A stretch of 64,000 bases of DNA from Balneolaceae bacterium (GTDB taxonomy: Bacteria > Bacteroidota > Rhodothermia > Balneolales > Balneolaceae): positions 186,001-250,000 of the forward strand of contig JAEPQE010000001.1 of NCBI GenBank assembly GCA_017640665.1, in the 5' to 3' direction. Positions 43,172 to 43,884 of this stretch are shown piece after piece (position 1 is the first letter of the stretch; every line of letters begins with the position of its first letter). The translations under genes and the position numbers were made by a program. Under the pieces are notes generated by a model. The model saw only the letters and a program-made list of their open reading frames with translations, was not told the origin of the DNA and did no database searches.

Positions 43172-43205
43172 AAAAATAGTCGGAGCCTGGTCAAAGGCTC
43201 CGACT
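43172..43205 (-). terminator. Terminator of the hsp20 transcript
   Basis: AGTCGGAGCC (43178-43187) and GGCTCCGACT (43196-43205) form a perfect 10-bp stem with an 8-base loop. On the minus strand it is followed by ATTTTTAG. It separates hsp20 from degP. Confidence 0.88.
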
Positions 43206-43230: not shown

Positions 43231-43662
43231 TTATGCGATTTCGATCTGCTTCTTAACTTTCTCTTCACTTTTCTTAATAGAGATGTTCAGAATTCCATCT
43301 TCGTATTTTGCTGTAATGCTGTCCTCGTGAATAGAATCCGGTAAGTAGAAAGAGCGACTAAATTTACCATACTGAGTTTCTACTCTATGGAAGTTTTTGC
43401 CTTCTTCTTCATTCTTAAACTTACGCTCACCACTAATTGTTAATCTTCCTTTCTCAAGATCAACTTTGATGTCTTCTTTCTTCAAGCCTGGCAGTTCAAC
43501 TGATACTTCAAACTGTTCGTCTGTTTCGGAGACATCCACGCTAGGCATAAAATTATCTTTGCGATAGTTTGTTGTAGCGTTGTTGAAGAATTCATCAACA
43601 ATGTCGTTGAAGTTTCTTGAGAATACGTCGGTGTTTGGTCTGTTATATTTTATAAGTGCCAT
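43231..43662 (-). CDS. Hsp20/alpha-crystallin small heat-shock protein
   Basis: 143 residues. A short N-terminal arm (YNRPNTDVFSRNFNDIVDEFF) leads to the alpha-crystallin domain (about 45-137) with FEVSVELPGLKKEDIKVDLEKGRLTISGER, GKFSRSFYLPD and the terminal motif YEDGILNISIKK. ATP-independent holdase in the cytoplasm. Upstream lies a well-formed sigma-54 promoter (43717-43732) and a set of TGTCA/TGACA repeats, so expression is probably controlled by an NtrC-family activator. This is unlike the usual heat-shock sigma or HrcA control. Confidence 0.97.
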   Translation of the reverse strand: MALIKYNRPNTDVFSRNFNDIVDEFFNNATTNYRKDNFMPSVDVSETDEQFEVSVELPGLKKEDIKVDLEKGRLTISGERKFKNEEEGKNFHRVETQYGKFSRSFYLPDSIHEDSITAKYEDGILNISIKKSEEKVKKQIEIA

Positions 43663-43714
43663 AATTGAATCCTCTTTTCTTATTAGTTATACATTCAAAA
43701 ATTCACTTTGTGTT

Positions 43715-43732
43715 TTGCAACGGACATGCCAA
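43715..43732 (-). promoter_or_regulatory. Sigma-54 promoter of hsp20
   Basis: On the minus strand TTGGCATGTCCGTTGCAA matches TTGGCACG-N4-TTGCW at all but one base, with the essential GG (43730-43729) and GC (43718-43717) separated by exactly 10 bases. A start about 12 bases downstream leaves a leader of about 43 bases before the ATG at 43662. Confidence 0.8.
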
Positions 43733-43753
43733 TTGCATCAGATATTTAAGAAC

Positions 43754-43861
43754 TGACAGCTCGTCAAACTGGGAATGAAGAAATTGCAGCCTACTTTTTG
43801 AGGGATAGAAAGGATGTCATACAGAGTTTGTCGCATAGACAGGTGGGTGACAAAAATGACA
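43754..43861. promoter_or_regulatory. TGTCA/TGACA repeats, candidate enhancer sites for the hsp20 activator
   Basis: TGAC-N5-GTCA at 43754-43766. Further upstream TGTCA 43815-43819, TTGTCG 43828-43833, GTGACAA 43847-43853 and TGACA 43857-43861 form a nested inverted arrangement. They start about 22 bases upstream of the sigma-54 promoter and extend about 130 bases, typical for bacterial enhancer-binding proteins. The activator gene is not in the window. Confidence 0.55.
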
Positions 43862-43884
43862 GGCTTATTCAATTAAAAATGTTT

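Follow-up and report, generated by a model that had tools for sequence, protein, structure and literature searches.

Which machinery controls the small heat-shock gene hsp20 in this Balneolaceae bacterium? In other organisms, hsp20 genes are usually controlled by a σ70-family factor, by HrcA or by an RNA thermometer. For the 64,000-nucleotide stretch of DNA analyzed here (the window), the initial annotation had proposed σ54 control of hsp20 by an NtrC-family activator with further targets, and our comparison of sequences across the family supports this proposal. The gene itself, hsp20-1 (43231 to 43662, minus strand, with its ATG at 43662), encodes a 143-aa small heat-shock protein (Pfam HSP20, 4.4e-27) in a genome of 3.8 Mb assembled in 9 contigs. 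Its nearest named relatives in a similarity search belong to Balneolaceae, Gracilimonas amylolytica and a Rhodothermia bacterium, and an Hsp20 match is present in 90 of 92 Balneolaceae genomes. The DNA upstream is probably the hsp20 control region, at which σ54 (RpoN) would act together with a dyad-bound NtrC-family AAA+ activator, most likely the protein that we call L005.

The minus strand carries a putative σ54 −24/−12 promoter, TGGCATGTCCGTTGCA (43716 to 43731), with GG-N10-GC spacing and 53 nt between the end of the element and the hsp20 ATG, which bears out its initial placement at about 50 bases before the gene. The exact consensus TGGCAYGN4TTGCW has one match in the window versus 0.04 expected; with two mismatches allowed, there are 12 window matches versus 12.6 expected, which is the level of chance, and genome-wide the exact form has two matches (the second inside a gene) versus one for the reversed control. 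Given that the motif is near chance with mismatches or genome-wide, it is not decisive by itself, and we dropped it as stand-alone proof. It is conservation, rather than the motif match, that settles the predicted promoter as real. All 90 Balneolaceae loci examined have an element scoring at least 12 of 14 at −55 to −85 before hsp20 (best score 14 in 56, 13 in 24 and 12 in 10), counts that are not independent because the family sequences are related; shuffled upstream sequences reach a score of 12 in 2.8% of cases and 13 in 0.4%. These upstream regions comprise 30 initial and 60 later loci from 89 genomes, one of them represented twice, and one genome with only a divergent Hsp20 match was left out of the set. 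The −12 element of g19 genomes reads GT instead of GC. Among the 39 open reading frame starts of the window, only hsp20 scores 14 and one other scores 13, while clpB and degP show no −24/−12 score of at least 11 upstream and are thereby ruled out as co-targets within the window. We hold it to be almost certain that the σ54 promoter before hsp20 is genuine.

Transcription from σ54 promoters begins roughly 12 nt downstream of the GC of the −12 element, and applying this rule to the promoter position predicts a start at about 43705 and thus a 5′ leader at 43663 to 43705 on the minus strand. Downstream, an intrinsic terminator-like hairpin with an 11-bp stem and a T-rich tail lies 3′ of the gene on the same strand (43178 to 43205), and hsp20 is monocistronic.

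Upstream of the promoter, five 15-mers resembling CTGNC-N5-GNCAG begin on the minus strand at 43862, 43842, 43820, 43789 and 43767. Site A, CTGTCATTTTTGTCA (43848 to 43862), and site C, ATGACATCCTTTCTA (43806 to 43820), which is chiefly one half-site, came from the upstream alignment together with the dyad search. Site B, CTGTCTATGCGACAA (43828 to 43842), is a full dyad from the dyad search, and site E, TTGACGAGCTGTCAG (43753 to 43767), the closest to the promoter, was found by the search for TGNC-N5-GNCA dyads. Site D, CTGCAATTTCTTCAT (43775 to 43789), is a degenerate dyad that we recognized visually in the alignment of upstream regions, where its counterpart in relatives reads CTGAA-N5-TTCAG. 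In dyad quality, B and E rate as good, A as fair, and C and D as degenerate in this genome. The TGTCA/TGACA repeats that had been read as dyads are real, and their array extends from 43753 to 43862, one base past the end first assigned to it. The spacings from A to E (20, 22, 31 and 22 bp) are near whole numbers of helical turns, which would place the five sites roughly on one face of the DNA.

The array is well represented in the family, and Gracilimonas amylolytica (L018), a cultured relative, shares it. In 28 of the 30 family loci used for the dyad search, a TGNC-N5-GNCA dyad of the site E type occupies −35 to −37, and a CTGNC of the site A type lies at about −131 in most family loci. Altogether, the 30 loci contain 47 TGNC-N5-GNCA dyads versus a shuffle mean of 0.89 and a maximum of 3. 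A site matrix built from these 30 loci and applied to the 60 others recovered 130 sites versus 15.9 expected, with 40 of the 60 loci significant by count and 31 by best site; the sites are weak in many g11 loci. As for the promoter, these counts come from related sequences and are not independent.

The initial annotation had suggested looking for an rpoN gene, for conservation upstream of hsp20 in relatives, and for other places in the genome where promoter and dyads occur together. Besides the conservation described above, we found a single rpoN gene encoding all three RpoN domains, and the combined pattern at exactly two places in the 3.8-Mb genome, both of them before hsp20 paralogues (reversed control, 0). 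The second paralogue, hsp20-2, encodes a 148-aa protein with the Pfam HSP20 domain. In 81 of 92 family genomes the combined pattern is matched, by eye mostly as TGNCAATACGTCA before the second hsp20.

The shorter promoter pattern TGGCAYN5TTGCW, searched without the dyad, occurs at 9 places in the same genome versus 2 in the reversed control, and at 102 places in 13 relatives versus 43. All 111 places in these 14 genomes were classified, 107 by direct reading (a place retrieved in duplicate entering a single time) and 4 as known hsp20 loci: 59 fall within coding sequence, 13 are intergenic and have no gene start within 95 nt, and 39 are located 38 to 95 nt upstream of a gene start. At 33 of these 39, the downstream gene is a chaperone gene (hsp20-1 in 9 cases, hsp20-2 in 10, grpE in 10, a DnaJ-like gene in 3 and a GroES-like gene in 1). 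The other six precede BI-1 family genes (2), flgB-like genes (2), an FmdB-like gene (1) and a methyltransferase-like gene (1), the last three names being given by eye. The hsp20, grpE and BI-1 places were sorted by tblastn, and one example each of grpE, BI-1, DnaJ-like and GroES-like was checked against Pfam. As would be the case in a chaperone regulon of the flavobacterial type, the promoter is therefore common to the second hsp20, grpE, DnaJ-like and GroES genes.

Under a held-out test of the site matrix, all 10 hsp20-2 loci carry a site at p ≤ 0.021. At p < 0.05, the same holds for one of three cbpA and one of two BI-1 promoters, for only 1 of 11 grpE promoters and for none of one groES promoter; the three flagellar σ54 promoters and the one HlyD promoter gave none (p ≥ 0.08). 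The grpE gene of the window's genome (C3, about 117437; L121:1501-1557) has its −24/−12 site 56 nt before the ATG, kept in relatives. Full dyads before grpE were looked for in the held-out test and not found, and by eye a half-site, TTTGTCA, stands in their place. A further grpE place (L339) falls among the 13 intergenic places, and so does a −24/−12 site with a TGTCATTACGTCA dyad (p 0.008) in one relative (G079; L284, C4:15810), located about 340 nt upstream of the start of a gene named dnaK by eye, with a masked run between. On this sequence evidence, the full dyad is present at the two hsp20 genes and one dnaK, and grpE has a promoter with a half-site at best. The further targets anticipated at the outset were thus recovered: the second hsp20, grpE and a DnaJ-like gene, together with dnaK in one relative. 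As a separate observation, a Bax1-inhibitor family gene (PF01027) of the window's genome (C3, about 207821; L122:1501-1579) is preceded by a −24/−12 site and a dyad, TTGACATTTTTTCAG, and the PF01027 gene of another genome (G040) by the promoter only.

Which protein might bind these dyads? The window's genome encodes three σ54 activators, of which L004, located near folD, and L006 (C1:10207-13710) have a receiver domain and L005 (C4:11993-13291) has none. L006 is a response-regulator activator with GAFTDA instead of GAFTGA, encoded beside an NtrY-like kinase; the HlyD-type gene divergent from it has TTGGCACAGTAATTGA and a palindrome, ACACTAAGTGT, upstream. Downstream of the L005 gene lie lptE-like and TPR-like genes (named by eye), and in two relatives (G089 and G009) a miaB-like gene directly precedes its ortholog. 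L005 comprises a Sigma54_activat AAA+ domain (PF00158, 5.6e-70) that begins at residue 13, leaving 12 residues before it, and a Fis-type HTH (PF02954, 5.9e-13); the stretch from the lid to the HTH, about 120 residues long, has no Pfam match. Among 14 aligned orthologs, the loop reads GAFTGA in 12 and GSFTGA in 2. Response_reg is not matched, so that L005 was rejected as an NtrC two-component response regulator; it was likewise rejected as a member of the PspF family (292 bits versus a cut-off of 444) and of the NorR family (301 bits versus 476, with no GAF match). Its predicted structure had a mean pLDDT of 41.9, too low for use. Regarding the NtrC-family activator initially proposed, the σ54-activator part of the claim stands, with sites and genes conserved, whereas the likely activator lacks a receiver and would not be of the classic two-component kind.

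Across the family, rpoN was found in 84 of 92 genomes. Among the matches listed, 87 of the 92 genomes show one to L005 at 61% identity or more, in one case a fragment, and those of the remaining five are weaker and concern other activators. Two family genomes of 1.5 Mb (G089 and G090) keep rpoN and exactly one detectable activator, which is linked to lptE.

The alternative that survives best accepts the σ54 promoter and assigns its activation to L004 or to L006 with its NtrY-like kinase. Both are true σ54 activators with receiver domains, and most relatives have two or more activators. However, among 19 genomes chosen mostly for showing few activators, six (G079, G080, G081, G085, G089 and G090) have a single PF00158 activator, and in all six it is the lptE-linked L005 ortholog and the −24/−12 element of hsp20 is kept. 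The hsp20 sites are significant in five of the six, the exception being G079 (p 0.23 at hsp20, with a significant site at its dnaK promoter), and rpoN was found in five, none being seen in G085 (87% complete). These genomes are drafts of 67 to 96% completeness from three genera, and a second activator may therefore have been lost or left unassembled. The upstream regions of the activator genes themselves point the same way. Of 30 relatives, 25 have a dyad upstream of the gene for their L005 ortholog and 5 lack it; in 18 of the 30 the site reaches p < 0.05. The dyad typically reads ACGTCA-N3-TGACAG, with the geometry of the hsp20 dyads. No −24/−12 element was found before the L005 ortholog genes (scores 7 to 10). 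In contrast, the upstream regions of L004, L006 and HlyD show no significant dyad (p 0.08-0.6), and by eye the palindrome of the HlyD region differs from the hsp20 dyad. We thus regard activation by L004 or L006 as unlikely, and infer from these comparisons that the lptE-linked L005 is very probably the activator of the hsp20 promoter.

A second alternative is that the dyads bind some other regulator, such as a repressor or global factor, with the activator working from solution or from sites elsewhere. Site E is merely 22 nt upstream of the −24 element, and many classical enhancers sit farther away; in addition, the full dyad is missing at the grpE promoter. Yet this dyad is found again at a constant distance upstream of both hsp20 genes and also before the activator gene, and it is absent at the three flagellar σ54 promoters, which makes this alternative quite improbable. 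That hsp20 is instead under ordinary σ70-family, HrcA or RNA-thermometer control and the −24/−12 match is accidental appears extremely improbable: although across the genome the exact motif by itself does no better than chance, the element is conserved at every hsp20 locus of the set, and our searches lent these controls no support (no CIRCE inverted repeat in the window at up to 3 mismatches, no relevant Rfam match to a ROSE-type or other RNA thermometer in the leader up to an E value of 1, and no σ70-like sites above chance).

Returning to L005 as the preferred activator, the following mechanism can be proposed. RNA polymerase with σ54 would transcribe hsp20 from the −24/−12 element, and the NtrC-family AAA+ activator would bind the CTGNC-N5-GNCAG dyads 22-131 bp upstream of the −24 element. 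An activator oligomer would form on roughly one face of the DNA, cooperatively over several sites, as published for NorR. By looping or directly, it would contact the σ54 closed complex and open it by ATP hydrolysis, an established feature of all σ54 systems. L005 probably also drives the second hsp20 and the DnaJ-like gene, and perhaps grpE and, in some relatives, dnaK. PspF is an activator without a receiver that controls stress genes and regulates its own synthesis. The dyad before the L005 gene suggests that L005, too, would bind near its own promoter and autoregulate in the PspF manner, and the two also share the missing receiver and the stress-gene targets. Unlike PspF, L005 has other targets, a long linker before the HTH and a location beside lptE, and it falls below the PspF model cut-off. 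Since L005 has no recognized sensor domain, our guess is that some partner restrains or titrates it. The NorR site is GTCA-N3-TGAC, and NorR resembles the present system in having several sites and, as GTC-N5-GAC, the same site geometry; L005 differs from NorR in lacking a GAF domain and in falling below the model cut-off. At norVW, as stated in the accessible portion of PMC2941729, three enhancer sites scaffold the NorR oligomer.

How does this relate to published systems? In the accessible text on Flavobacterium psychrophilum (PMC9723704), σ54 (SM4) starts are mapped at groESL, dnaK, grpE-dnaJ, lon, htpG, clpB and skp, none of the three PF00158 proteins is assigned to the chaperone promoters, an operon of a σ54 regulator and lptE is listed under another promoter class, and neither Hsp20 nor an enhancer site appears. 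The two systems are alike in phylum, in the −24/−12 elements before chaperone genes and in a σ54 regulator encoded with LptE, as far as that text goes; the present system differs in that hsp20 is its principal target and in offering both an array of sites and a candidate activator. A 2025 survey by promoter matrix and gene class (PMC12316311) reports, in its accessible parts, σ54 promoters enriched at IbpA, GroEL, GrpE, DnaJ and DnaK genes of Bacteroidota and Planctomycetota. Those parts predict for small heat-shock genes the kind of control found here and name no activator or enhancer for the chaperone genes; the word Balneol- is absent from the main text. Judging from these portions of both sources, σ54 control of chaperone genes is not unusual in the phylum, contrary to what the initial annotation expected for hsp20. 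Escherichia coli ibpB, likewise a small heat-shock gene, has a σ54 promoter (cited in PMC4316790); going by the excerpt available, it is a second promoter beside that of σ32, whereas no other promoter was found here. The available portion of PMC4641369 contains no heat-shock target, and in our literature search neither this activator nor this site was named by any paper found. σ54 control of hsp20 in Bacteroidota is thus already in print as a prediction, and what the present analysis adds is the assignment of activator and site.

Beyond Balneolaceae, all four hsp20 loci of the sister family f2 score 12-13 of 14, with CTGAC-like sites by eye. Of 20 outgroup hsp20 loci taken from other parts of the phylum, 10 show a −24-like element with a score of at least 12 (2% of shuffles), and none of these 10 has GC at −12. 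The 20 outgroup loci contain 10 sites versus 5.9 expected, and outside the order the site model does not reach significance. Four of the 20 show, by eye, an apparent second hsp20 coding sequence directly upstream. Two loci of another class (L376 and L377, in G102 and G107) have repeated CTGAAAACTTTTCAG-like palindromes and CTGTCA copies before TTGGCACACACTTTGAA, upstream of hsp20. Given the departed −12 element and site counts not clearly above chance, we treat phylum-wide control by L005 as hypothetical.

It is tempting to speculate, although we consider it rather doubtful, that the lptE-linked activator is a general heat-shock switch of Bacteroidota, acting on hsp20, grpE-dnaJ, dnaK and groESL in the role of σ32 or HrcA, restrained by chaperones or by an envelope component, and that it ties protein quality control in the cytoplasm to lipopolysaccharide transport. 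If the narrower assignment of L005 to the hsp20 promoter is right, an abundant phylum would possess a σ54 heat-shock circuit linked to an lptE operon. By singling out one activator together with a likely DNA site and a core set of targets, the comparison makes the question of the activator testable.
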